The notes under the pieces: generated by a model
The model's database searches: none
The model's input: only the letters and a program-made list of their open reading frames with translations
What the model was told of the DNA's origin: nothing
In this document: positions 1-11,936 of the stretch, one piece after another
How positions within the stretch are numbered: position 1 is the stretch's first letter
Layout: each line of letters starts with the position of its first letter
Program-made: the position numbers and the translations under genes
Assembly (NCBI GenBank): GCA_021014945.1
Contig: MU266833.1
Location: forward strand, 1-11,936
Source: Leucogyrophana mollusca
Lineage: Eukaryota; Basidiomycota; Agaricomycetes; Boletales
DNA length: 11,936 nt
Reading direction: 5' to 3'

Positions 1-187
1 AGCAGGTGATCGCGACGGGGGCGTCGCGATGTGCAGGGGGGGGCAAATGGAGTGGGGCGTTTGGTGAGAGGAGCGCAGGCGACAAGGCGTTTGAGACGGC
101 AGACTGCAGGATCAGAGGGGTTTCGGGGATGCGGGACGGTGTCCGAGGTCGCAGCTTAGTCATACAGTAGACACAGGCCATGCACGC
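1..187. other. GC-rich left edge, no gene recognised
   Basis: This stretch is G-rich and holds no gene I recognise. A reading frame is open from base 3 to a TAG near 170, running in from the left edge, but its translation shows no motif. One strong hairpin is present at 9-30, with 9-bp perfect arms and a GGGG loop. The rest (31-187) lacks the dense hairpins seen further right, so the hairpin-rich DNA may be interrupted here. Confidence 0.4.
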
Positions 188-607
188 ATGTACACGCACA
201 CACATCATTCATCATCATCTCTTGCTGCACGTCTGTTCCCCTCTCGGCCTGCTCCATCGAGATTATTCTCGTCGTTAGATGACAAGCAGATGAGCCTGCT
301 GGCTGATCCCCCCACCGTGCACAATTTAGTCACGGCTAGTGCGACATCTGGACTTGTCGCCGGGGGGTTCGCCGCCAACAATCCGTTGGCCGACGTGGAC
401 CACGAAATGGCCACGGTCGTCCCCAACAACAAGCGGCAGCTCATCATCGGCCGTCCCCGCAGCTCTCCCCCTCCTGGCGAGGGGGCAGTCTCTCTTGACT
501 ACAGAGAGGGAGATGTACCCGTCAACATGAGTGTTGACACCGCCCACGTCCTTGGTGACCCAACAGGTCACCCCAATGTCCCCGCTAACAAGGCCCTGCC
601 CTCGTGA
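188..607 (+). CDS. Unrecognised 139-codon ORF, possibly the C-terminal part of a retroelement third ORF
   Basis: I do not recognise this protein. It is open for 139 codons from an ATG at 188; a second in-frame ATG follows DDKQ near 290. The first 30 residues are His/Ser-rich and look like translated noncoding DNA; the remainder is Ala/Pro/Val-rich, with no membrane segment or catalytic motif. About 200 bases downstream are a polypurine tract and an LTR-like start, so by position this could be the end of the last ORF of an upstream retroelement copy. It shares the inverted-repeat style of the main element: stems at 521-538 (7-bp arms, 4-nt loop) and 554-572 (7-bp arms, 5-nt loop) lie inside it. 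It could also be a chance ORF. Confidence 0.35.
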   Translation: MYTHTHHSSSSLAARLFPSRPAPSRLFSSLDDKQMSLLADPPTVHNLVTASATSGLVAGGFAANNPLADVDHEMATVVPNNKRQLIIGRPRSSPPPGEGAVSLDYREGDVPVNMSVDTAHVLGDPTGHPNVPANKALPS

Positions 608-815
608 GCGCTCTATCATCCACGCTACCCTAGGGTAGCGTCTGTTTCTCTTTTCCTTTCTCTCCTCATTTTCTCTCTACCTAAAATATGCAAGTACCAC
701 AGTGGTACTTGCCCTTTGTACTATTTCTGCCTAGTACATTACTGTACCACCACCCACACGTCTCAATGCGCGCTGCTAAAATTATCAGAGTCCCAAGGGA
801 CTCTAGTGGGGGGAG
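608..815 (+). other. Hairpin-rich spacer ahead of the LTR (putative 3' untranslated region)
   Basis: There is no ORF of note. The spacer contains a perfect 20-bp palindrome at 622-641, just after the stop codon of the preceding ORF, a stem of two 11-bp arms around one base at 690-712, and an 8-bp stem with a 2-nt loop at 787-804. In position it resembles a 3' untranslated region between a terminal ORF and a polypurine tract. The palindromes could also act in RNA 3'-end formation, which sequence alone cannot show. Confidence 0.4.
808..815 (+). promoter_or_regulatory. Polypurine tract next to an LTR start
   Basis: The run GGGGGGAG directly abuts TGTAAGG at 816. In Ty3/gypsy elements a purine tract immediately before the 3' LTR primes plus-strand DNA synthesis. 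Its position here, upstream of gag, implies that the sequence to its left is the 3' end of an element. Confidence 0.5.
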
Positions 816-988
816 TGTAAGGGGCTGTTACCCTTTTAGGGTGACAGCTCATATATTCAACTCTACCTACTATAAATACATAGAAAAACCTTATTTACAA
901 TGACTGTACTTTTCACTTACTTACCATCAAATACACCGAGTGGTCGTGTTAGTGGTCTCGAGTGAACAAGTATAACAAAACCGTTACA
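816..988 (+). repeat. Candidate LTR of the main Ty3/gypsy element (173 bp)
   Basis: The segment begins TGTAA right after a polypurine tract and ends TTACA, giving 5-bp inverted TG...CA termini. TATAAATA at 871-878 is a plausible promoter. It lies 36 bp upstream of the gag start, as a 5' LTR should. Weak points: it is short, no second copy is present in the window, and I cannot identify a tRNA-complementary primer site after it. A different right boundary is possible. One imperfect stem (about 10 bp with one mismatch) lies near 831-851; otherwise it has few hairpins. Confidence 0.45.
871..878 (+). promoter_or_regulatory. TATA box in the candidate LTR
   Basis: TATAAATA lies 147 bases upstream of the gag ATG and within the candidate LTR, a reasonable place for the element's promoter. 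No transcript evidence is available. Confidence 0.4.
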
Positions 989-1024
989 CTTTTTTAACAC
1001 CCAACAAAACTTGTTGAGTATTCG
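989..1024 (+). other. Leader between the candidate LTR and gag
   Basis: This 36-base leader has a T run followed by a stem at 1002-1016 with 6-bp arms and loop AAC. A primer-binding site would be expected here. I see no TGG start matching a tRNA 3' CCA end, so the priming mechanism is unresolved; self-priming by complementarity, known from the Tf1/sushi group, remains untested. Confidence 0.3.
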
Positions 1025-2845
1025 ATGGCAACACAAGCCAACACCCGCGCAGCCTCATGTGCCGGCATAGCCGGCGCAAAAAAAGGTCCTTCTCCATTGG
1101 GGGGCAAAAAGCCTTCAGTGAAGGCGAAAAAAGGCCAAGGGAGTGATCCCGAGGCCACAGAAGAGCGTGATCAGCAGATTGCTGGAAATAGCGCTGTAGA
1201 AGCGCAGGGGCAGACCCTGGCTTTGACAGACAAAGGCCCCAAAATGGGCGCCAATGAAAATACCGAGGAAGCCCTGGAAGGGGCCCCAAGGAAAGAAAAA
1301 GAGGCGGATGCTAGCATCCGTGTGACTGGCACAGAAGGACAAGCGGTGACTCTAGAGTTGCCCAACGTGTCCCGCGAGAAGACTCGCGAAGTAGCGAAGG
1401 GGACCCCAAGGGTGCTCCCCAACGCTAAGGAAGCCAGCGAGCATATGCTCATGTATATGAGGTGCGCCATTCGAGAATGGCGAGCGCAGGGACAAAGTGT
1501 CCCTGCCGGATATAACCATGGGATTAATCCCTATGAGGCCGAGGCCCAATGCCTCGAAAATCTCGAGGTGCTGATGATCGGCTCGCTCGAGGAGATCGAG
1601 CAGACCAACCCCCCGTCCGATTCGGACGAAGAGGAACGAGTCCCCACCAATGAGGAGGGGCTCGAGGACCTCTATGCCAAGGAACAGCCTCGCAATAGCG
1701 AGGGAAGACAGAGGGGAAATCCCCAGGACTACCCGCAAGGTAGAGGACTGCCCCAAGGGCAGCCGGATCCGGCAAGACAATTCGGGACAGGAAGACCTGT
1801 TCCCGAAGGATACCCAGCCTACCTCTCGGGTAGGAATAGCGACATAATGCGCCACCTGGGAGCGGATGGGCAAGCCCCATATGACCCAGGAGATGACAAA
1901 GGTAGCCAATATGGCTACGACCATAATGGTAATGGGTCTCGAGAGACCCCTTCATATGGGTGTGGAGGTGGTGGAGGAGGTGACCCTCCTCCTCCCCCGG
2001 TAGGGGGTGGCGATGATGAGCGATCCAGTCGCTCATCACGGCGAGACACAGGTCACTCAGACCCATGCGCATTGCATGAGCGTGAAGTACGCCCTCGAGG
2101 GGGCTACCCTGCCGCTAGGGACAGGGAAACACCAGGTCCCTTTGACTATATGTTGACCCTACTCGACAGGTATGAGCAATGGATCCACGAGAAAGTGGAT
2201 GGAGACAGGGAAAAGATCCCTGAGGTCAAAGGGGCGAAGCCCACAACACCCGACACCTATGATGGCAAGGATGACATCGAGATGTTCGAGTCTTGGCTAT
2301 CCAAGACTCTGCGCTGGATGCGCATGCTGAGAATGGTCGGCCCCAACTATGATAGGTTGAGGATAGAGTACTTGGGAAGTACTCTGACGGGGCTCGCACT
2401 CAGCTGGTACGAGCAGGTGATTGAGTCCCCATATGGGGAAGGCAATCACTACTACTTCAATGAAGTAGTAGTTGCCCTGTTCAAGCGCTTCATTACTGAA
2501 GCGACAGTCCAGAAGGCGCACGATGAGTACGCCGCGACGTGCTACTTGCGTGCCAAAGGCGCGTTGGCCTTCTACAACGAGATCCAGCGGCGAGCCGCTA
2601 GGATGATCCAACGGCCTGATGACTATTCCATCAGGTGCAAGTTCTTGACCGGACTCCCGCAAGAACTTGTGCAGGATGTCCTCAAGTCGAGAGGAATCTC
2701 GGCTGAACACTCATCAATCGACGAGATCCTAATTGCCGTAAGGCAGATGGAATCGGCCCACTGCTTTGTGGAACACCACAGGCAGGGAATGGACCATAGT
2801 GCCCACCAGAGTGGTGGGAGTTCACATCGTCGAGATGACAAGTGA
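1025..2845 (+). CDS. gag: Gag polyprotein, N-terminal and capsid part
   Basis: This encodes the structural protein that would form the cytoplasmic particle. The 606-codon frame starts at the first ATG after the LTR. Residues 1-130 are Ala/Lys/Glu-rich; 200-310 are hydrophilic with many Arg, Gly and Pro; 313-330 form a Gly-rich then Pro-rich stretch. Residues about 385-590 match the retrotransposon Gag capsid domain, with a WLSKTLRW segment, GLALSWYE, VVALFKRFI and a YSIRCKFLTGLPQEL helix pair. It ends at a TGA (2843), and the same frame continues with Arg/Lys-rich sequence, so the stop is probably secondary. At least eight stems with arms of 8 bp or more lie in it, the longest being 11 bp at 2448-2472. 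Confidence 0.85.
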   Translation: MATQANTRAASCAGIAGAKKGPSPLGGKKPSVKAKKGQGSDPEATEERDQQIAGNSAVEAQGQTLALTDKGPKMGANENTEEALEGAPRKEKEADASIRVTGTEGQAVTLELPNVSREKTREVAKGTPRVLPNAKEASEHMLMYMRCAIREWRAQGQSVPAGYNHGINPYEAEAQCLENLEVLMIGSLEEIEQTNPPSDSDEEERVPTNEEGLEDLYAKEQPRNSEGRQRGNPQDYPQGRGLPQGQPDPARQFGTGRPVPEGYPAYLSGRNSDIMRHLGADGQAPYDPGDDKGSQYGYDHNGNGSRETPSYGCGGGGGGDPPPPPVGGGDDERSSRSSRRDTGHSDPCALHEREVRPRGGYPAARDRETPGPFDYMLTLLDRYEQWIHEKVDGDREKIPEVKGAKPTTPDTYDGKDDIEMFESWLSKTLRWMRMLRMVGPNYDRLRIEYLGSTLTGLALSWYEQVIESPYGEGNHYYFNEVVVALFKRFITEATVQKAHDEYAATCYLRAKGALAFYNEIQRRAARMIQRPDDYSIRCKFLTGLPQELVQDVLKSRGISAEHSSIDEILIAVRQMESAHCFVEHHRQGMDHSAHQSGGSSHRRDDK

Positions 2846-3619
2846 CCCGATAGGTCGCGTGAGCAAGGACGCCCTTACCGAGTGGTAAGGCGAACTGACA
2901 CCAAGAGGGAAGGACACCATGATAAGGCGCCCAACTCTCAAGAAAGGGGAAACTACCCCGACAAGAACAAATACCAATCCGCCCCTAGGGGTGATAACGG
3001 GACTGGAGGATACCCTCCAAGGAAGAATAACTTTGGGGGCGACAAGGCCACCCCCAAGAAGTCACACCCACCGGGTGTGAAATGCTATATATGTGGCGGG
3101 CAACATTATGCAAATGAGCATAAAGAGAAGACACAGCAACTGTTTGCTGCACATATCATAGAGGAAGGCGAGCCTTCCCCTGAGGAAGACTTGCCGACCG
3201 GCGCCGCTGCCGACGAGGCTGAGCAAGCTCAGCCTCCCGCAGAAGGCGAGGAGCCTTCTGATAACGAGGTTGCAGAGGAAGAGGATCCCGAGGGATCCTC
3301 AGAGAACTCAGACGAGTACGCCCTGGAGCTGTATGAATCATACGGAGAAGAGCATGACGATAGCGATATCATCTATATACGGGCCATGAACACAAGGTTC
3401 GATGTCCCTGACCTCGATGAGCCCATGAGCGTGGTGGAGGACGACGATGTCCCCCTGCTCGAGGATGCAGACAACTCATCCCACAGGGGGGGTACTGCAG
3501 GGCAGGAAGCCCTTCCAGAAGGAAGGAGGCCCAGGTGGCATTACCATCCCGAGGATGGTATTGTACACGACAGTGACGAGTGTCGCATATGCAAGGGACG
3601 CGGAGGATGCGACCTATGA
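2846..3619 (+). pseudogene. gag: Gag C-terminal part: nucleocapsid zinc knuckle and acidic linker
   Basis: The segment continues Gag in the same frame after the TGA at 2843; its first ATG-like codon is the GTG at 2882. A basic stretch, as expected for nucleocapsid, precedes a zinc knuckle at 3083-3121 of form CX2CX3HX4H, which would bind element RNA. The last ligand is His where Cys is usual. Residues after the knuckle are strongly acidic (many Glu/Asp) up to about 3500. Near the end is a second His/Cys-rich patch, HYHPEDGIVH then CRIC. The frame closes at 3617-3619, and the coding signal continues in another frame from about 3600, indicating a net +1 shift. Confidence 0.75.
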
Positions 3620-4208
3620 GGTCACGGTAACCGAGAAAATGGATCATGAGCGCATGATCTATATGAATGCCTGGGACACTTATGAAGTGTCCTCGATTGG
3701 ACCCGAGTCAGAAGAGTACAGAGCACTGCTCACTCGACTGTCAAGGGCCAATGACAGGCTGCAGACCGCCTCACGAATGGCGGATGAACTGGCCAGTGCA
3801 GCAGTCGAGATTGCGCATGAGATGCATGAAGGCCACCGATGGGTGGCCCATAGACTGCATCTGCACTACCAGGGAGAGGGCAGTGAGGCCGAGTCTGAAG
3901 AAGACTCGACCCCATCGCCAGGACCAGCGTGGGTCCTCGCCTCTGACGAGGCGGATACGTCCACCAATGAGGTGGAACAGTTGTTGACGGAGCCTGTGGG
4001 ATGCACGCGCTGTGTGAACCATAGCAGTGGCAACTCCTCTCATGGAGAGGAGAGCGAACAGCTTCATGCTATGCATGAAGCAAAAGCACCTGAAGAGCAA
4101 GAATATCGCTACACCATCAGGAAGCCCATGGCTACAGGACAGTGTCCCAAGAGGGACGCTCGTGCACAGCGGTGCATGGCAGGGTATATTACCCTCAATG
4201 GCTTCTGA
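3447..4208 (+). pseudogene. gag-pol: Gag-to-protease linker, shifted frame
   Basis: The frame is open from 3447, but only the part after about 3600 looks genuine; the earlier bases overlap the preceding frame. The translation is acidic, with alpha-helical regions (DELASAAVEIAHEMHEGH) and a small Cys/His patch (CTRCVNH). It ends with GYITLNGF directly before the protease, where this family normally has the strand leading into the active site. The TGA at 4206 interrupts it and the same frame continues into DSGST. Stems inside include 3642-3659, 3674-3692, 4034-4052 and 4061-4081 (9-bp arms). I cannot assign an enzymatic role; a spacer or particle-assembly region is most likely. Confidence 0.6.
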
Positions 4209-4367
4209 GCCTACACACTGTTCGACTCTGGGAGCACGACCGACTCGGTCAGCCCCTAGGTGATGAAGGTAGCGAAGCTACTGGTTTTCCAACTGGATAA
4301 CCCAGTGACATTGCAACTCGGCTGCGTTGGCAGCCGCTCCAAAATATTCTATGGTTGCAATGTAACT

Positions 4368-4372
4368 GCTGC
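4368..4372. repeat. Target-site duplication of solo LTR copy 1, left
   Basis: GCTGC here is repeated exactly at 5120-5124 on the other side of the LTR. Removing the LTR and one copy rejoins the protease codons in phase. Confidence 0.9.
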
Positions 4373-5119
4373 TGTCAAATCTGGTTCCTCCGGTGCTTTC
4401 CGGGGAACTCCAGACTAGGAGTGAGTGTAGGGACTTAGAGTAATTAAGGACAAACGATTTCCGGAGTCAGAAAGGAACCTTTGGCTTCAGCTTATGTGCT
4501 GCGCCCTTGTCCGAGTTTGGTTCCGGATTTCAGAGGAGTCGGAGGGGAGTCGGAGACTCAAGGAGAACACAAGAAGTAAGAGGAATCTTAAGGAAAGATT
4601 CCAGAGAGAATAATCGGAGGGGTAGAGACTTAGAGGCGGAAAGAACAGGAGGTGATTTAATTGATATTCGAACTAAGGAACTGGAGCATACATCGGAGCA
4701 ATATTTATACTACGGAGTCAGGCTGTGCTACGGAGTAGGGTAACCGGAAACCGGTGCAACGAGAACAATAAGAAAACAACTAAAGGAATAGCTTTGGAGT
4801 GGGTCCGGAGAACGGAGGAGGCTATGTACATAGGATTTGTGTGACAGATGGAGGATAAATGATAAGGTTAATATGCAGGCTAACAAAAGGCAATGCATAA
4901 TAATATGGAAACTATAAGTGACAACATACTGGAGATCCGACGAGGCGGTGTTCGGTCCGAGGGACCGGCGGAGAGTCTGGAGGACCGGAGGCGGAGTGAC
5001 GAGTTCTGAAAAAACGTTAAGTCCAACATATGTTAGACGGAGGCAACGGAAGGACGCGGAAGTATCCGGAAAGAACTTGGAGTGGTGGATACGGGCACGT
5101 GGCTGTACGGGATATGACA
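4373..5119 (-). repeat. Solo LTR, copy 1 (747 bp) nested in the protease
   Basis: The termini are TGTCA...TGACA and the insert is flanked by perfect 5-bp target duplications GCTGC at 4368-4372 and 5120-5124, as LTR integration leaves. It aligns along its whole length with the reverse complement of 10688-11434, which is also 747 bp. The two are clearly diverged; by eye I estimate identity around 75-85%. TATAAATA on the minus strand (4702-4709) suggests that the LTR reads leftward. No internal retroelement sequence adjoins it, so it is a solo LTR left by LTR-LTR recombination. Several differences from the other copy are C to T at CpG positions, such as near 4381. Confidence 0.9.
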
Positions 5120-5124
5120 GCTGC
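5120..5124. repeat. Target-site duplication of solo LTR copy 1, right
   Basis: GCTGC matches 4368-4372 exactly. Confidence 0.9.
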
Positions 5125-5302
5125 GTTCAGTCCACTATCAGTGGACCACTACTTCGATGTCACGAACATCGATAGATACGACTGCATCGTAGGGAATCCC
5201 TGGATGTGTGAACATGGAGTCCTATTGGACTTCGCTAACGACGCCATTGTTATCAATGGTGTACATATCCCCGCTCTTACGGAGGAGGAGGAACAGGAGT
5301 GA

Positions 5303-5986
5303 CTAGCTCACTCGAAGTCCTCCGGTATCTCTACGAAAGTAGAGCCGGCAAGGACTTCTCGCCCCCACGCCACGACAATAGTGGAAGTGGAGGACAAGGA
5401 GGCACCCAAGAGTGCTTCGTGTGGAGGGAGTGCGGTGCAGGCACCGCGCTCACAAGGTAATGTTAGTCACCTGAGGGGGACCTCAGAGGCCCCTTCAGAA
5501 AAATCTGAAAAAGCCAAAAAGAAGTCGAAGATTAAATCTTCGAAGAGAAGGGAAAGCAGGAAAGCCCAGCGAGCTTTCCTGGCTAGGATACAGGAGAACT
5601 CCCTAACAGAGGAGGACATCCCGAGGCTTCGAGAACAATGGTTCTCAAAGCGTGTGGATATGATGGGAGGAGTACCTCCCAGGATGCTGCCCTTACGGGA
5701 GGTAAATCATCATATACCCCTTGTCAATCCTGATAAGCAACATACATACCACCTCCCGAGGTGTCCGGACGCCCTTAAGCCGCAGCTTATGGACAAAATC
5801 CGTACATATGAAGACGCAAAGTGGTGGGTACGCGCTAGCATACCCCAAGCTGCACCAATGTTGTGCATTCCCAAGAAAAATGGGAAGTTGAGGACAGTCG
5901 TGGACTGTCGCAAACGGAACAATAACACCGTAAAGGATGTTACCCCGTTCCCGGATCAAGATCAGATCCGGTTGGATGTAGCTTGA
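5303..5986 (+). pseudogene. pol: Reverse transcriptase, N-terminal (fingers) part
   Basis: The segment is in the same frame as the end of the protease, after the TGA at 5300. It opens with a linker and a Lys-rich patch (EKAKKKSKIKSSKRRE), followed by the typical lead-in to Ty3-type RT: MLPLREVNHHIPL, YHLPRCPDALKP, SIPQAAPMLCIPKKNGKLR and TVVDCRKRN (from about 5891), the fingers region that contacts template and nucleotide. It stops at a TGA (5984-5986) just before the motif A aspartate. Stems include 5525-5543 (8-bp arms) and 5557-5581 (9-bp arms). Confidence 0.85.
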
Positions 5987-6224
5987 GTGAATTTTCGCTC
6001 AAAGATAGACATGGCAAATGCGTATGAACAAGTACGTGTTGACCCCGCAGACGTGGTGTCGACGGCCTTTGCGACCGTCTACGGCACGTTCCTGAGCAAT
6101 GTAATGCAGCAAGGGGACTGCAACGCCCCTGCCACATTCCAGCGGCTCATGACCACGATATTTCGTGATTATATTGGGGTGTTTATGCACGTCTATCTAG
6201 ACGACATGTTTGTGTTCAGCGATA
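5987..6224 (+). pseudogene. pol: Reverse transcriptase, palm with catalytic motifs A, B and C
   Basis: The frame is unchanged from the preceding segment. Motif A is SKIDMANAYEQ, with its catalytic Asp codon at 6008. Motif B is QQGDCNAPATFQRLM. Motif C is YLDD at 6194-6205, followed by FVFSD. All three catalytic aspartates are present, so activity was lost through stops and insertions rather than active-site change. Coding stops making sense at 6225, where the TIR element begins, and resumes at 6900. Confidence 0.88.
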
Positions 6225-6897
6225 TAGTGTCAGTCACTCAAAAGTGGCAACTGGCTAGTAGGCAGGACAAAAATGATATCTCCTCACAGACAAAAAAGCT
6301 TTTGGTCTCGGAAATAGTGCCAATCGACTCCTTTTATATGTAGCTTTAATTCTACCTCACCACTTTTCTAAAATTCCTTCATATAAAATTTTCGCCCATC
6401 TTAAATCTGAATTTGAAGCGGAGATCAATCGGAGTTACCATAAATGGTATGCATGGATCGCTTAGCTCACTTTGCCGGGGTTGCCGAGGACTGAACTTGA
6501 ACACTCCCACTTGACTCCTACCCAGAAATTTAGTAGAAACTTGGTCGTGACACTATTCCTTACTTACATCCTGTACCACAGTTCTGACCCTCTCTCTTGC
6601 ATTGTGATACTAGACTAGTTGTTATGATTTCCATGTATCTTATATGATTTGAGCTGCCTCAGAATTATCTTTCCATGAGCGAATGAAGTTAATGAACCTC
6701 CCCTGAGCTTCCCTGCACCAAAGAACAAAAAGTAAAATTTTGATCACAAATCTGAATTATTATGTAATCAGGGTGATTTTCAAGAATTTAAATTTACGCA
6801 TATTTCATCCATGTTTCCTATCAAAATTTCTTTTTGGCGGTGAGGGGAGGTCATTTCGAGGCACAGCAGAGTTGCCGTCTCTTACTGACTCACACTG
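6225..6897. mobile_element. Non-autonomous TIR element with TA duplication (MITE-like, 673 bp)
   Basis: The ends are inverted repeats: the outer 28 positions match at 20 (for example AGTGT and GGCAACT shared), and weaker similarity reaches about 70 bp inward (6225-6299 against 6828-6897). TA flanks both sides (6223-6224 and 6898-6899), as for Tc1/mariner-type transposition. The interior is AT-rich and has no ORF resembling a transposase. Removing 6225-6899 joins the RT codons exactly, and 675 bp is 225 codons, so the insertion does not shift the frame but brings in stops (first at 6341). Superfamily assignment rests only on the TA and termini. Confidence 0.8.
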
Positions 6898-6899
6898 TA

Positions 6900-7066
6900 C
6901 AATTGAAGAAAACAAAGAACACCTGGGTATGGTGTTCACAAAGCTGTGCGAGGCACAGCTATACCTCGAGAAGGAAAAATGCAACTTGTATTCCAAGCGC
7001 ATGGACTGTCTCGGCCACGTAGTGGACGACAAGGGGCTTCACGCTGACAGTGATAAAATGGCATGA
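6900..7066 (+). pseudogene. pol: Reverse transcriptase, thumb/connection part
   Basis: After the TIR element the RT resumes in phase with TIEENKEHLGMVFTKLCE, then LYLEKEKCNLYSKRMDCLG and HVVDDKGLHADSDK, the usual segment after the YLDD box in Ty3-type RT. A TGA at 7064-7066 interrupts it and the same frame continues directly into the next segment. That stop lies in a near-perfect 16-bp palindrome (7060-7075) whose only broken pair involves the T of the TGA. Confidence 0.85.
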
Positions 7067-8938
7067 ATTCGTGCCTGGAGAGTGATGCGCTCGTACCATG
7101 AGGTACAGCGCTTCCTGGGACTGGTGGAATATCTGGCACAATTCATGCCAGATGTATCCCCGTATACCAGTCCGTTGTCTGGCATGACCAAGAATGGTCA
7201 CGCGTTCTACTGGAGACCGCTCCATGATAAGTGCCTTGAGTATATCAAGGCACTGGCGTGCAAATCGCCGATACTTTGGCCAATCAACCCAAAATTGCTT
7301 GAAGCAATTTGGTTGATCTGCGATGCCTCGGCATCGGGGCTAGGAGCGTACTACAGGCAGGGCCCGGATTGGAGGACATGTAGGCCAGCCGGCTTCATGT
7401 CCAAGAAACTCAGTGATGCCCAGCATCACTACGCCGTACACGAATGCGAGGTCCTCGCAATACTTGAGGCACTCCTCAAGTGGGAGGATAAGCTCCTCGG
7501 GTACAAGTTCAGCATAGTGACCGACCATGAGTCACTAGAGTTCTTTCAAACTCAAAGGAAGTTATCGAGTCAACAGACTCAATGGATGGAATATATCGCC
7601 CGATTCAACACAGACATTGTCTACGTGAAGGGTGAAGAGAACAAAGTAGCGGACTGCTTGTCCCGCTATTTCGAAAGCGACACCTGGGAGGATGTCCCCC
7701 AGGAAGGGGACATGGCAGTTGCAGATGTGCGATTGGATCCCCACGGTGGCGACCTTCCCCAGGGAAGGATAATAGAATTACGATCCCAGAGGATCGTGAG
7801 AGAACCTACTCGTAAGAGTAGGCAGCTAAAGGAAATGCCTGAACCCAGGAGGATTCAGGCCGAGGAACTCACACATGCCACCCCTCAACGAGGGGAAACA
7901 GTGCATGGCCCTTCAAAAAACCCAGGGGGTGGGGAACCAACCCCAGGGACCCTCGAGGGACCAAGCATGGTGCTCCAAGGAGACACTGCGGTGAGTGGTG
8001 ATGATGACGACACATCGACAGTGAGGTTGGTCAACTCAGTGGCCGACTCCCCCTCACTGCGCAAGTACGCCGAAGAAACCGAAGGGTTTCTTAGGGATAT
8101 CCATGTGGGATATCCTGGGGACAAGTTACTGTCCAAGGTGTTGGACAGTCCGAAGGAACATGCAGCATTCACGCTGCGTGACGGATCATTATACTCCACT
8201 AACCGTGGAGGGCACGAGGTGTTGTGTGTACCACGAGGTACGCACAAGGGACGAAGCCTCACGGGCATCGTAATCGACCAGGCACACACGGTGCTTGGGC
8301 ACTTCGGACCTAGCAAGACTGCCGATTATATACGGCGGTGGTATTGGTGGCCCAAGCTGGGCACGGAAGTCAACAAATTCTGCAGGAGCTGCGGAATCTG
8401 TCAGACCACCAAGGGCAGCAATCAGCTGCCCCCCGGACTACTGCACAGTCTACCCATACCCAGGAGACCCTGGGGATCGATAGGAATGGACTTCGTGGGT
8501 CCATTCCCCGAATCGAAGGGGTACGACTACCTGTGGGTAGTCCTGTGTAGGTTGATGTCAATGGTACACTTGGTACCAGTGAGGACAACCATTAGGGCGT
8601 CCAAACTAGCTGGTGTATTTGTACGAGAGGTCGTACAACTGCACGGACTGCCCGAGACAATTGTCTCAGACAGAGATCCCAAGTTCACGTCAAAGTTTTG
8701 GCGTGAAACACATAGGATATTAGGAGTCAAGCTCCTAATGTCCACCGTGTTCCATCCCCAGACGGATGGAGCGTCCGAAAGATCTATAAGATCAATCGGG
8801 CAGCTGTTGAGAAGCATGGTGCTCCCAGACCAGACGGACTGGGCAGATAAAGTCCCCCTGGTCGAGTTTGCAATAAACTCAAGTATCAGCGTGTCAACGG
8901 GGTTCGCCCCGTTCAAACTGAACTATGCCTACGTTTAG
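7067..8938 (+). CDS. pol: RT connection, RNase H and integrase core
   Basis: This is the longest intact stretch; numbering is from an in-frame ATG at 7082 (618 codons), which is an internal Met and not a true start. Residues 1-60 finish the RT (YHEVQRFLGLVEYLAQFMPD). RNase H, which removes the RNA template, spans about 74-195, with Asp81, Glu121, Asp148 and Asp191 present. Integrase, which inserts the cDNA, follows: an HX4HX29CX2C zinc site (His402, His407, Cys437, Cys440), then the core with Asp470 (GMDFVGP), Asp530 (VSDRDPKF) and Glu566 (DGASERS), a D,D(35)E spacing. Residues 200-320 are a hydrophilic linker. The frame ends at a TAG in a hairpin loop (8925-8947), where the coding frame shifts. 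Confidence 0.92.
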   Translation: MRAWRVMRSYHEVQRFLGLVEYLAQFMPDVSPYTSPLSGMTKNGHAFYWRPLHDKCLEYIKALACKSPILWPINPKLLEAIWLICDASASGLGAYYRQGPDWRTCRPAGFMSKKLSDAQHHYAVHECEVLAILEALLKWEDKLLGYKFSIVTDHESLEFFQTQRKLSSQQTQWMEYIARFNTDIVYVKGEENKVADCLSRYFESDTWEDVPQEGDMAVADVRLDPHGGDLPQGRIIELRSQRIVREPTRKSRQLKEMPEPRRIQAEELTHATPQRGETVHGPSKNPGGGEPTPGTLEGPSMVLQGDTAVSGDDDDTSTVRLVNSVADSPSLRKYAEETEGFLRDIHVGYPGDKLLSKVLDSPKEHAAFTLRDGSLYSTNRGGHEVLCVPRGTHKGRSLTGIVIDQAHTVLGHFGPSKTADYIRRWYWWPKLGTEVNKFCRSCGICQTTKGSNQLPPGLLHSLPIPRRPWGSIGMDFVGPFPESKGYDYLWVVLCRLMSMVHLVPVRTTIRASKLAGVFVREVVQLHGLPETIVSDRDPKFTSKFWRETHRILGVKLLMSTVFHPQTDGASERSIRSIGQLLRSMVLPDQTDWADKVPLVEFAINSSISVSTGFAPFKLNYAYV

Positions 8939-9596
8939 CGTAGGCATGCACCCCCAGGAGAAGAACACTGTTCCTGGCGTTCAGCACTTTGTGCGTCAAG
9001 CACAAAATAACTTGGTGATGGTGCATGACGCCATCATAGAGAGCTGGGTCAACCAGACCCACTACACTAATCAGCGTAGGCGGACAGAGTATGATCTCCA
9101 AGTAGGAGATCTAGTGTACCTGTCCACAAAGAACTTATCCCTACCCAAGGGTAGGGCATTTAAGCTATTGCCCAAATACATAGGACCTTACAAGGTCCTG
9201 AGTAGGAACGAGGAGAGCTTGAACTACACGCTCGAGCTCCCTGACATACTCGTCAATAGACGAGTTCACCCCACATTCCACGTGGGTGTACTGCGCAAGC
9301 ACAAACCAAACGACGATGGGTTGTTCCCCCATCGTGACGTCCAAGTCTATTACGACTTCGGAAACGATGACGAGACCAAATGGCTTGTCGACGAGATCAA
9401 TGCCCACCAGTGGGTGGGCAGGAAAGTAGAGTTCCAGGTTCGCTGGAACCTGGGCGACTCTACGTGGGAGCCTTACAACGAGTGTAAGTACTTAGAAGCT
9501 CTAGACAATTATCTAGAGCTTGCCAGAGTGGGCAACTGGCAACAGTTGCCCAAGGCGTCCGCGCGCCCTAAGGTGCACGCACTTGGTAAAGGTTGA
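8925..9596 (+). CDS. pol: Integrase C-terminus (GPY/F) and chromodomain
   Basis: This continues the integrase in another frame; its first ATG (8925) overlaps the previous frame by 14 bases. EKNTVPGVQHFV and AHDAIIES-like helices lead to the GPY/F motif YIGPYKVL (residues 85-92), then HPTFHVGVLRKHKP. Residues 153-200 form a chromodomain (KWLVDEI, VEFQVRWNLGDSTWEPY, ALDNYLEL), which in chromoviruses directs integration toward modified chromatin. It ends at a TGA near 9594. The stem density is extreme: 9182-9199, 9401-9420, 9434-9453 nested in 9426-9463, 9496-9521 and 9529-9552. The protein motifs fit the family while the DNA forms stems. Confidence 0.9.
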   Translation: MPTFSVGMHPQEKNTVPGVQHFVRQAQNNLVMVHDAIIESWVNQTHYTNQRRRTEYDLQVGDLVYLSTKNLSLPKGRAFKLLPKYIGPYKVLSRNEESLNYTLELPDILVNRRVHPTFHVGVLRKHKPNDDGLFPHRDVQVYYDFGNDDETKWLVDEINAHQWVGRKVEFQVRWNLGDSTWEPYNECKYLEALDNYLELARVGNWQQLPKASARPKVHALGKG

Positions 9597-9803
9597 AGTC
9601 CAGTTTAGGACTGGATGCGCGCGTGGGGCCTTGGTCCGAGTCCCTGCCGCCGGGATCCAAATTAGGATCCCTGAGATTAACCCGAAATGAATGATTGACT
9701 CATCGAGTCAATTTAGACTTTACGCAAGCGTGGAGCTCAAATTTATTTTAGCAAAGCGAGAGGGGCCCTCTTGCTTTTACCCTACACCCTCATCATCTAG
9801 ACA
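9597..9803 (+). other. Spacer between pol and the third ORF
   Basis: No ORF is seen. It carries stems at 9652-9671 (7-bp arms, 6-nt loop) and 9694-9712 (8-bp arms, 3-nt loop), plus a 13-base palindrome AGAGGGGCCCTCT near 9760. How the following ORF would be expressed (separate promoter, splicing or re-initiation) cannot be told from the sequence. Confidence 0.5.
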
Positions 9804-10340
9804 ATGAGCAGCAAGCAATCCAAGCAGCCCTTGGGCAGCCGCCAGAACACTCACCGTGCATTGCCCCTAGGGGAGTCGCATGACAAGCCCATGGACCATG
9901 AGTCCACCAAACCGCCCTCCGTGCCCTCAACGATGGCAACGTCGAAGAGGTTGCGGTGTCCAAGCGACGACAATAGTCACTCATCAAAACGCCCACCCCA
10001 CGGGTGGGTATTCAAACCGTTCCTGCAGACGGTAGCTCACGCTACCGGCTGCCCGCAGTGCACAGTGTACATCGAGCACCTCAGCGAGGTCGATAGTACG
10101 TCGGGCAGCTTTGCAGCTGCTATCGAGGCGCGCGACAGCTTCTACGCTGATCGCACAAATCGCGGCATGCTGCCGGGGTGCAATGTCGCCCTCTTGGAGG
10201 ACGACATGCGACGTTTTCGTTGCAGTATGGAGGAGGCTGTCATCACTCGTGATGAATATTTGCATGAGTTGTGAGATCAGGACTCTGAAATCACAACTCT
10301 CAAGGAGGAGTTGGCTGTTGCGCAGGCGCTGTCTTCTTAG
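9804..10340 (+). CDS. Third ORF downstream of pol, short coiled coil, interrupted by TGA
   Basis: I do not recognise a named family. The ATG at 9804 opens 156 codons, a TGA falls at 10272-10274, and the same frame continues 21 codons to a TAG at 10338. Residues 1-60 are Ser/Lys/His-rich and probably disordered. The middle has GCPQCTVYIEHL, a CX2C-like site, and the end (RRFRCSMEEAVITRDEYLHEL, then SEITTLKEELAVAQAL after the stop) has helical heptad character. A separate ORF after pol can encode an envelope-like or accessory protein in some gypsy elements; no signal peptide or membrane segment is visible here, so a cytoplasmic or nuclear accessory role fits better. The protein appears truncated at the 3' side. 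Stems lie within it, including 7-bp arms in the GTAGC...GCTAC region near 10030. Confidence 0.55.
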
Positions 10341-10687
10341 GATGGTGTTTAATATGTTTTCAGACAATGATACCAAACACTATCCTCCACGGTTAGCGGT
10401 TCAGACAAATACCAACGGCTAATAACGTGGTCGTTTGTGGTGGACTCAGAATAGTATGAGTTTCCCGATCTGCTAGGATAAAGTGGCTGACGACTGCTAG
10501 GGGGTACCTTCTTGGTGATACGATCAAATACGGTGAACAAGGCGAAGTCAATCGGTTGACTTCTAACACGATGCAAGATGAGCTCTAGAAGTGGGTTACA
10601 CTTTCACTAGAGTTTGAGCGGATAGTGTAATCTCCGATTGAGATTATAGATACGTAATACGTGGGTGAGTATGCTAAAGCTTACGAT
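10341..10687. other. Noncoding stretch after the third ORF
   Basis: No gene is recognised. Two clear stems, 10544-10563 (8-bp arms, loop TCGG) and 10628-10646 (7-bp arms, 5-nt loop), and a longer imperfect foldback around 10390-10430 continue the style of the main element, so this is probably degenerate element sequence. No copy of the candidate LTR (816-988) is found here. Confidence 0.4.
10683..10687. repeat. Target-site duplication of solo LTR copy 2, left
   Basis: ACGAT is repeated exactly at 11435-11439. Confidence 0.9.
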
Positions 10688-11434
10688 TGTCATATCCCGA
10701 ACAGCCACGCGCCCGTATCCACCACTCTGAGTCCTTTCCGGATACTTCCGCATCCTTTCCGTTGCCTCCGTCTAACATATGTTGGACTTAACATTTCTTC
10801 AGAACTCGCCATTCCGCTTCCGGTCCTCCGGACTCTCCGCCGGTCCCTCGGACCAAACACTGCCTCGTCCGGATCTTTTGTATGTTGTCAGTTATAGTTT
10901 CCATTTTATTATGCATTGCCTTTGTTAGTCTCCATATTAACTTTATTGTTTATCCTCCGTCTGTCATACTAATCCTATGTACATCGCCCCCTCCATTCTC
11001 CGGATCCACTCCGTACTCTGGAGCTATACCTTTAGTTGTTTTCTTATTGTTCTCCTTGCACCGGTTTCCGATTACCTACTCTGTAACATAGCCCGACTCC
11101 GTACTATAAATATTGCTCCGATGTAACTCTGTACCCCAGTTCGAATATCATTTAAATTACCTCCTCTGTTTTCTGCCTCTGATCTCCTCTCCGATTCTCC
11201 TTCCTAAGTCTAATCTAAGACTTCCTCAGTTCTCCCTTATCCTTTGTATCACTCCGACTCCTTCCGACTCATCTCCGAAATACGGAACTGAACTCGGGCA
11301 AAGGCGCAGCACATAAGCTGAAGCCGACGTTCCATTCCGACTCCGGAATCAGTTCGTTCACTCCTATCTACATATCTACGCTTACTCCTTAGTCCGGAGT
11401 TCCCCGGAAAGCACCGGAGGAACCGGATTTGACA
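10688..11434 (+). repeat. Solo LTR, copy 2 (747 bp), inverted relative to copy 1
   Basis: It begins TGTCATATCC and ends GATTTGACA, with the 5-bp duplication ACGAT on each side. Its reverse complement aligns end to end with 4373-5119. TATAAATA at 11105-11112 sits mid-element and suggests transcription rightward, with roughly 420 bp of U3 before it. It is pyrimidine-rich on this strand with many TCCG motifs. No internal retroelement sequence adjoins it. It came from an insertion independent of copy 1, because the duplicated sites differ. Confidence 0.9.
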
Positions 11435-11439
11435 ACGAT
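11435..11439. repeat. Target-site duplication of solo LTR copy 2, right
   Basis: ACGAT matches 10683-10687 exactly. Confidence 0.9.
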
Positions 11440-11936
11440 GTTCAGCAGAAACACTTGACTTAGACTAAGAACACTAGGCTCAAGAATGTCTAGTAGTCAA
11501 CAATCTGACTCTACTAGCCTGAGGACTAGGTAACATGGCAATCGATCACTTACGACTGCAAAGAATAAGAAGCACTAACAAAATACTTGCAGTCCTTGAG
11601 ACTACTTTGATCGAGAGAATATTAGAGCAGAAGCGCTGTACAATACTCAGTCAAATGTTACTACCATGCTTGCCGTGGCCTACTTGGGCTATTTAAGCGT
11701 ACACAAGTTCTACAGGAATATATGTCCTGGCAGAAGATAGATTGTTTGTGAACTGAAGCTGTGTCTGGTTCTCACAGAAATACCTCAAACACAAAATCCA
11801 TATGATTTCATACGATCTTCCCACAGATTTATCACTGTAGGTAATGATGACGAAAGGTGTCTCGACGTCGCCTGGAATGATGACGAGAGGGGTCCAATCG
11901 TTGAGCTTAACATTGACCACACGGGGGTCCTAACGT
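11440..11936. other. Right flank, no gene recognised
   Basis: The sequence has balanced composition and few inverted repeats, unlike the region left of 10650. The only possible coding signal is on the minus strand near the right edge (separate entry). No transposon end or RNA gene is seen. Confidence 0.4.
11693..11920 (-). CDS. Short unrecognised minus-strand ORF, possibly an exon reaching the window edge
   Basis: The frame is open for 75 codons from a GTG at 11920; there is no ATG at this start. The first part reads VNVKLNDWTPLVIIPG then DVETPFVIITYSDK, a composition that looks protein-like, while the rest looks less so. Just upstream on the minus strand is TTAG followed by GACCC, which could be a 3' splice site, so this may be an internal exon of a gene lying to the right. 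I do not recognise the family, and a chance ORF is quite possible. Confidence 0.25.
   Translation of the reverse strand: MVNVKLNDWTPLVIIPGDVETPFVIITYSDKSVGRSYEIIWILCLRYFCENQTQLQFTNNLSSARTYIPVELVYA

Follow-up and report, generated by a model that had tools for sequence, protein, structure and literature searches.

Pervasive structure in coding RNA is known from RNA viruses, and its purpose is debated. In viral genomes with genome-scale ordered RNA structure (GORS), folding extends throughout the genome and many stem positions are not shared by relatives; a study of coronaviruses quotes a minimum folding energy difference (MFED) at 350 nt of 7-9% for hepatitis C virus and about 15% for SARS-CoV-2, and puts the record among RNA viruses of vertebrates at 23.4% (PMC7642675). 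Template switching between short inverted repeats is described in Saccharomyces genes, with perfect repeats and short spacers in coding DNA and inversion of the spacer (PMC8604942). Here we report on contig MU266833.1 of Leucogyrophana mollusca, analysed as a whole (the window, 11,936 bp, from a genome of 32.3 Mb in 545 contigs), which carries a Ty3/Gypsy long terminal repeat (LTR) retrotransposon, with its pol domains in the order reverse transcriptase (RT), RNase H and integrase (5987-6226, 7067-8935 and 8922-9593; Pfam). The element resembles the Ty3/Gypsy elements of Agaricomycetes with Tf2-type pol in its RT, RNase H, integrase H2C2 and core domains and SH3_Tf2-1, but its DNA is saturated with local hairpins, which ten other Ty3 loci of the same genome lack. 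Unlike the GORS-type viruses described in PMC7642675, it is an LTR retrotransposon, its MFED reaches 30.5% against their maximum of 23.4%, and its pairing is mostly local; and while the account of Saccharomyces covers 39 genes across strains (PMC8604942), 129 stems are found here in a single element. In the literature surveyed (titles and openings of abstracts, with subscription papers mostly outside) no earlier account for retrotransposons was found. Below, W denotes the copy in the window, L009-L025 other loci of the same genome, and L026-L035 host stretches.

On the whole, the 129 non-overlapping stems with arms of at least 6 bp (924 bp) occupy, together with their loops, 2,382 of 8,913 element bases. 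Stems with loops of 2-8 nt, a few of which overlap, were counted in the segments 1-4372, 5120-6240 and 6872-10646 and compared with 30 dinucleotide shuffles of each. For arms of at least 7 bp the counts are 36, 8 and 41, where shuffling leaves 1.43, 0.53 and 1.70 on average, an excess of about 23-fold overall, and with arms of at least 9 bp they hold 11, 1 and 6 against 0.07, 0 and 0.07. The nested insertions, which the preliminary description of this DNA had set apart from the hairpin-rich part, indeed stay at background, with one stem of at least 7 bp in 4373-5119 and none in 6250-6870, and the flank 10688-11936 likewise has none. In eight coding stretches, 63 such stems are observed, whereas shuffling of synonymous codons, which holds the protein and the codon usage fixed, gives 4.8 (maximum 16 in 200 shuffles), shuffling of codon order 2.5, and dinucleotide shuffling 2.4; the codon- and dinucleotide-preserving shuffles had been named beforehand as the comparison on which the claim of an excess would hang, and the excess stood. 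The protein alone thus about doubles the expected number (4.8 against 2.4), and the structure is carried mainly by codon choice. The excess is greatest in the registers that pair third codon positions with first or second positions, with counts of 41 and 36 against 28 for third with third (loops 0-8), while the register counts in synonymous shuffles, taken with loops of 2-8, are 356, 545 and 629 per 100 shuffles. Among the non-overlapping stem sites which the protein permits, 20 of 62 are realised in pol, 13 of 56 in gag and 10 of 20 in the integrase end; of two pols from other Ty3 elements, one realises 0 of 61 sites and the other 1 of 56. Conserved residues are not sacrificed to stems, since pol codons in stems are at least as conserved as the others (0.587 against 0.528 outside, p 0.09; 60 of 120 listed relatives).

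These counts bear directly on chance, base composition, codon usage, low complexity or an assembly artefact as the source of the stems. A Gly/Pro run in gag does yield a few stems through composition, and the doubling by the protein goes in the same direction, but the excess persists over dinucleotide, codon-order and synonymous shuffles alike, the same signal appears on other contigs and drops at the element borders (e.g. in L009, L010 and L011), and no tandem arrays occur, so that an origin of this sort is hardly credible. Nor is there a direct-repeat family of 25 bp or more, and the listed stems differ from each other in arms and loops; the view that they are not one repeat family holds as far as tested. 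An Rfam scan gave no match.

The hairpins are a property of a group of copies in this genome. Searching its DNA with 7067-8938 gives at least 29 matches, including the window itself and pieces of one copy, and the 17 loci around the matches have 7 to 56 stems each with arms of at least 7 bp, the lowest being L025 (7) and L017 (10). The more distant loci L017-L025, in ten segments whose borders were set by us, have 2.0-7.3 stems per kb, while W has 9.3. The comparison with relatives and host DNA that had been proposed beforehand thus finds the relatives rich, and ten 3-kb host stretches from 10 of the 545 contigs with 19 stems in 30 kb against 12.2 after shuffling; ten other Ty3 loci (of 32 matches) have 16 in 28 kb against 7.8. 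The host stretches L026-L035 show a slight excess of their own also with arms of at least 6 bp (60 against 42.1 shuffled). In a FastTree pol tree, whose grouping is given without support values, the rich copies form one clade of three subfamilies beside Pisolithus proteins, with the other Ty3 loci outside. Together with the Leucogyrophana relative of the gag, this placement would suggest a host in the Boletales. The pol has 59% identity to the best of 606 database matches and 57% to a Phanerochaete sordida protein. DNA relatives outside the genome gave no usable match in viral contigs or phages; one remote match (27%) in genome contigs and three in plasmids were left unused. For other species a protein-only test was made, in which the ratio of observed to shuffled signal is 1.29 in 120 pol relatives and 1.03 in 120 proteins from another Ty3 clade. 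About half of this pol signal (18.9 of 38.7) lies in columns common to at least 8 proteins, the control has more 9-bp sites (21, compared with 11 in the relatives), and once a single Gly/Pro run is taken out the gag signal drops to z 2.0, from 5.5; these checks having failed, we make no claim for species outside this genome.

Folding was predicted with three RNA phages as a yardstick. In 350-nt windows the MFED of W (30.5%) lies among those of MS2 (27.8%), PP7 (23.7%) and Qbeta (33.2%), while six other Ty3 loci give 5.7% and the host 0.2%; in addition, 83% of 58 windows of 150 nt in W have a folding z below -2. The route is different: in 500-nt folds, 71% of the predicted pairs in W span 30 nt or less, a share that is 46-52% for the phages and 51% for other Ty3 elements, and perfect stems with arms of at least 6 bp and loops of 3-8 nt number 14.2 per kb in W against 3.6-5.6 in the phages. 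By prediction, therefore, W equals an RNA phage in its degree of folding but reaches it in a more local manner. We consider diffuse selection for locally folded genomic RNA the best explanation of the hairpins, with a probability of roughly 0.45. The clade would have been shaped so that the whole transcript folds into a string of short local hairpins, which accounts for the codon use, the conserved stem residues and the A-rich loops (sense-strand loops have 0.36 A against 0.27 overall, and five loci of other subfamilies 0.34 against 0.27). The preliminary description had listed selection for a heavily structured RNA among the possible causes; the heavy structure stands as a prediction, and selection is favoured as a cause yet unproven.

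What the selection would favour can be guessed at in three ways, namely shielding of the RNA from silencing or nucleases, keeping the plus strand apart from antisense RNA or cDNA, and packing the RNA compactly into the particle. At 6-11 bp the stems would not amount to long double-stranded RNA, and would fit shielding without feeding Dicer.

Several results weigh against selection on the RNA. The share of G-U among predicted pairs is 7.4% in W against 9.6-10.2% in the phages and other Ty3 loci, and in stems with one mismatch the state common to most close copies is G-U at 5 sites, A-C at 5 and other at 4 (unique sites, counted by hand). The difference in z between sense and antisense folding is only -0.08 ± 0.08 across the family (12 copy sets, 358 windows), smaller than in the other Ty3 loci (-0.27 ± 0.09), which themselves manage without hairpin saturation. 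A-rich loops are not universal in structured RNA, as MS2 has 0.23 against 0.23, and GNRA loops show no excess (4 vs 2.8; 1 vs 1.9). Compensatory changes left among close copies after removal of CpG contexts amount to 3 sites against 0.3 expected. Stem densities in coding and non-coding parts decide nothing: for arms of at least 7 bp the values per kb are 8.1 (1-989), 7.2 (gag), 10.8 (6896-8935) and 5.7 (9801-10329), and for arms of at least 6 bp 11.1, 14.3, 14.7 and 9.5, but an open reading frame (ORF; 95-607) lies within 1-989 and little of the DNA is clearly non-coding (9594-9800, with 2 stems), and on this account we lowered our estimate for RNA selection from 0.5 to 0.45 and slightly raised that for template switching. 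As for wobble pairs and strands, the objections are weak, because G-U and A-C are at parity in MS2, PP7 and Qbeta as well, and PP7 and Qbeta are strand-symmetric; folding in W by itself favours the sense strand (z difference -0.46 ± 0.20), and MS2, unlike the family, is asymmetric (-1.61 ± 0.40). The two observations give no positive support to RNA selection either, and with the parity shared by phages the wobble test cannot separate it from template switching.

Comparison among copies shows that some stems last from one subfamily to another but most are replaced, while their density stays raised. In subfamilies that share less than 80% identity, 22 centres of stems lie at the same place where 2.7 are expected from random placement, in a comparison of 112 stems of W with 74 of relatives over 22 alignments, in which one stem of W may be counted against several relatives. 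Most stems are not common to the subfamilies, and some coincident centres differ in sequence; at 7292-7310, for example, L023 and L025 hold a stem with the same centre and 10 sequence differences. Coincident centres amid mostly unshared stems point to maintenance with turnover, as reported for GORS (PMC7642675). Among close copies (84% identity or more) the differences in stems lie mostly in CpG contexts, which suggests methylation-linked decay after insertion. Pairs in CpG contexts change at 17.5% per side against 1.5% elsewhere, a contrast inflated by a class partly defined by change. Compensatory evolution among close copies was considered and set aside, as 14 of the 17 unique Watson-Crick pairs changed on both sides are CpG contexts with both arms decaying. 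A lower substitution in stems (informative sites 3.0% against 5.6%, singletons 8.9% against 12.0%) was also left unused, being partly built in through the choice of stems that are perfect in W, and the ratio of informative to singleton changes does not differ between stems and the rest (p 0.12).

The main rival account is mutational, and traces of template switching are found in the same copies. By this account the RT of the element or a host polymerase often switches template at fold-backs and copies one arm onto the other, so that chance near-palindromes would be perfected and then filtered by selection on the protein. Three clean spacer inversions (W at 5992, L010 at 7420 and L012 at 9147) are of the kind described in yeast genes (PMC8604942), while in other repeats none of 10 rows with adjacent-base changes flanked by arms of at least 3 bp is inverted. 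The nearly exact local pairing, the short loops (mode 4) and the few G-U pairs also agree with it, restriction to one clade would suit a property of the RT, and for the stem 7412-7430 five alignments to distant relatives show 3-4 differences from W in the left arm but 0-1 in the right arm. However, each inversion is private to a single copy and may result from hairpins that were already there, and the arms at these sites are 3-8 bp, whereas the yeast inversions of PMC8604942 were seen only with arms above 9 bp. Close copies show no excess of multi-base runs (276 doubles per 1,888 singles, against 74 per 415 in other repeats), block-wise changes of one arm have few candidates among the copies compared, and the pol stem codons are not less conserved. 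Overall, template switching, which the preliminary description had also named, keeps the three inversions in its favour, whereas block-wise copying of arms is not shown between close copies; we regard it as possible but rather doubtful as the main cause. Other candidates for inversion were rejected: the CA/TG cases at 2939, 8880 and 8914 are separate CpG decays, other copies holding CG; two 4-nt candidates in distant relatives (7984 and 7384) can also be produced by CpG decay; and at 1321 in L014 a change that resembles an inversion is not flanked by arms.

Selection or bias at the level of DNA, with hairpins in the minus-strand cDNA or cruciforms in the integrated copy helping or protecting the element, would agree with the nearly strand-symmetric folding across the family and the parity of G-U and A-C, and the A-rich loops of the sense strand are T-rich in the minus strand. 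But the RNA phages share the parity, so that it is no pointer to DNA and was dropped as proof of a DNA mechanism, and the CpG-context differences suggest free decay after insertion, i.e. that a structure in integrated DNA is not maintained; we find this explanation improbable. A mixture of mechanisms is possible. It seems quite probable that, within the limits of the protein, the whole genome of this retrotransposon lineage was rewritten into a chain of short perfect hairpins by a lineage-specific force, either genome-wide selection for local RNA folding or an RT that templates itself so frequently that copying at fold-backs dominates the evolution of its sequence. Phage-like predicted folding beside ordinary Ty3 elements in the same genome offers a natural comparison between a selected structure (for silencing escape, packaging or strand separation) and a by-product of template switching, and shows that the choice of codons throughout an element can be governed by a force for local pairing.

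The features of the window are collected in Table 1.

Table 1. Parts of the window, individual stems (arm length and loop in nt) and sites of spacer inversion
Feature	Position	Strand	Details
Hairpin-rich 3' internal end, from an upstream copy of this element	1..815	+	blastn
LTR, 173 bp, TGTAAGGGG...CCGTTACA	816..988	+	L015 match begins at 816; L012 and L016 matches stop at 988-989
gag-like ORF, 606 aa from ATG	1025..2845	+	14 stems with arms >=7
ORFs 2846-3619 and 3429-4208, hairpin rich	2846..4372	+	ORF calls, stem counts
Solo LTR from another family, nested, without hairpin enrichment, TG..CA termini	4373..5119	+	5-bp target duplication GCTGC
pol start, up to second insertion	5120..6226	+	RT match PF00078 from about 5999
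Second insertion, no hairpin excess	6227..6895		inverted-repeat-like ends flanked by TA; approximate borders
RT end, RNase H (PF17917, PF17919), integrase zinc-binding (PF17921) and core (PF00665)	6896..8938	+	Pfam
Integrase C-terminal part, SH3_Tf2-1 (PF24626)	8922..9596	+	Pfam
3' ORF	9801..10274	+	ORF call
Second solo LTR of the nested family, inverted, within right-flank repeat	10688..11434	-	5-bp target duplication ACGAT
Stem	9..30		9 bp, loop 4
Stem	622..641		9-10 bp, loop 0-2
Stem	690..712		10-11 bp, loop 1-3
Stem	1486..1506		9 bp, loop 3
Stem	2014..2038		10 bp, loop 5
Stem	2288..2309		9 bp, loop 4
Stem	2365..2385		9 bp, loop 3
Stem	2448..2472		11-12 bp, loop 1-3
Stem	2638..2669		10 bp, loop 12
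Stem	3215..3236		10 bp, loop 2
Stem, absent from the preliminary list	3281..3300		9 bp, loop 2
Stem	4061..4081		9 bp, loop 3
Stem	5557..5581		9 bp, loop 7
Stem	7230..7254		10 bp, loop 5
Stem	7292..7310		8-9 bp, loop 1-3
Stem	8128..8149		9 bp, loop 4
Stem, absent from the preliminary list	8483..8507		9 bp, loop 7
Stem	8925..8947		9 bp, loop 5
Stem, kept in L018 and L023	9496..9521		10 bp, loop 6
Stem	9529..9552		10 bp, loop 4
Spacer between short arms	5988..5997		5992-5993 TT in W; AA in L010, L011, L013, L016, L022; GT in L020
Stem, 8-bp arms, 3-nt loop inverted in L010 (CCA -> TGG)	7412..7430		CCA in L011, L013, L014, L015
Stem, 8-bp arms, 2-nt loop inverted in L012 (AA -> TT)	9139..9156		AA in L009, L011, L014, L016

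All 18 stems listed in the preliminary description with arms of 9 bp or more are present, with arms of 9-12 bp when pairing is extended inward as far as possible; the list is real but had missed two. Loop lengths have their mode at 4 nt, and lengths above 7 are rare. Outside the range of mostly 2-7 nt given in that list is one 12-nt loop (2638-2669), and four near-palindromes (622-641, 690-712, 2448-2472 and 7292-7310) have loops of 0-1 nt if paired to the centre; the last has arms of 8 bp when a loop of at least 2 nt is required.

The window does not hold one element from its left edge, as had been supposed: 257-815 lies directly upstream of the LTR in L012 and L016 (blastn), and a single LTR, with TG..CA ends and borders set by L015, L012 and L016, joins the gag-pol copy to the 3' end of another copy in a head-to-tail layout (1-988). 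The right edge is at about 10329 by blastn, not at 10646, the element being cut there by another repeat (10330-10687 and 11435-11936), and W is thus truncated, split and without its 3' LTR. The gag-like ORF has no Pfam match, and a relative in Leucogyrophana mollusca has 62% identity to it across 74% of the query; Pfam scans of the ORFs 2846-3619 and 9801-10274 are likewise without a match. The integrase core match (PF00665, E 2.3e-7) falls narrowly short of the Pfam cut-off. The stretch 6896-8938 has 22 non-overlapping stems with arms of at least 7 bp, and the density is highest in the integrase C-terminal part (15.2 per kb in 8936-9593). The second insertion is AT-rich and splits the RT, and is possibly a short element of Tc1/mariner type. 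The repeat at the right, which a solo LTR divides in turn, stands where the element would have its 3' end; its family is also found in L009, L014, L022 and L023. The two solo LTRs belong to one family of about 747 bp in opposite orientation, and related stretches are found by blastn in L009, L010, L012, L013, L014, L018 and L019, and in part in L024.

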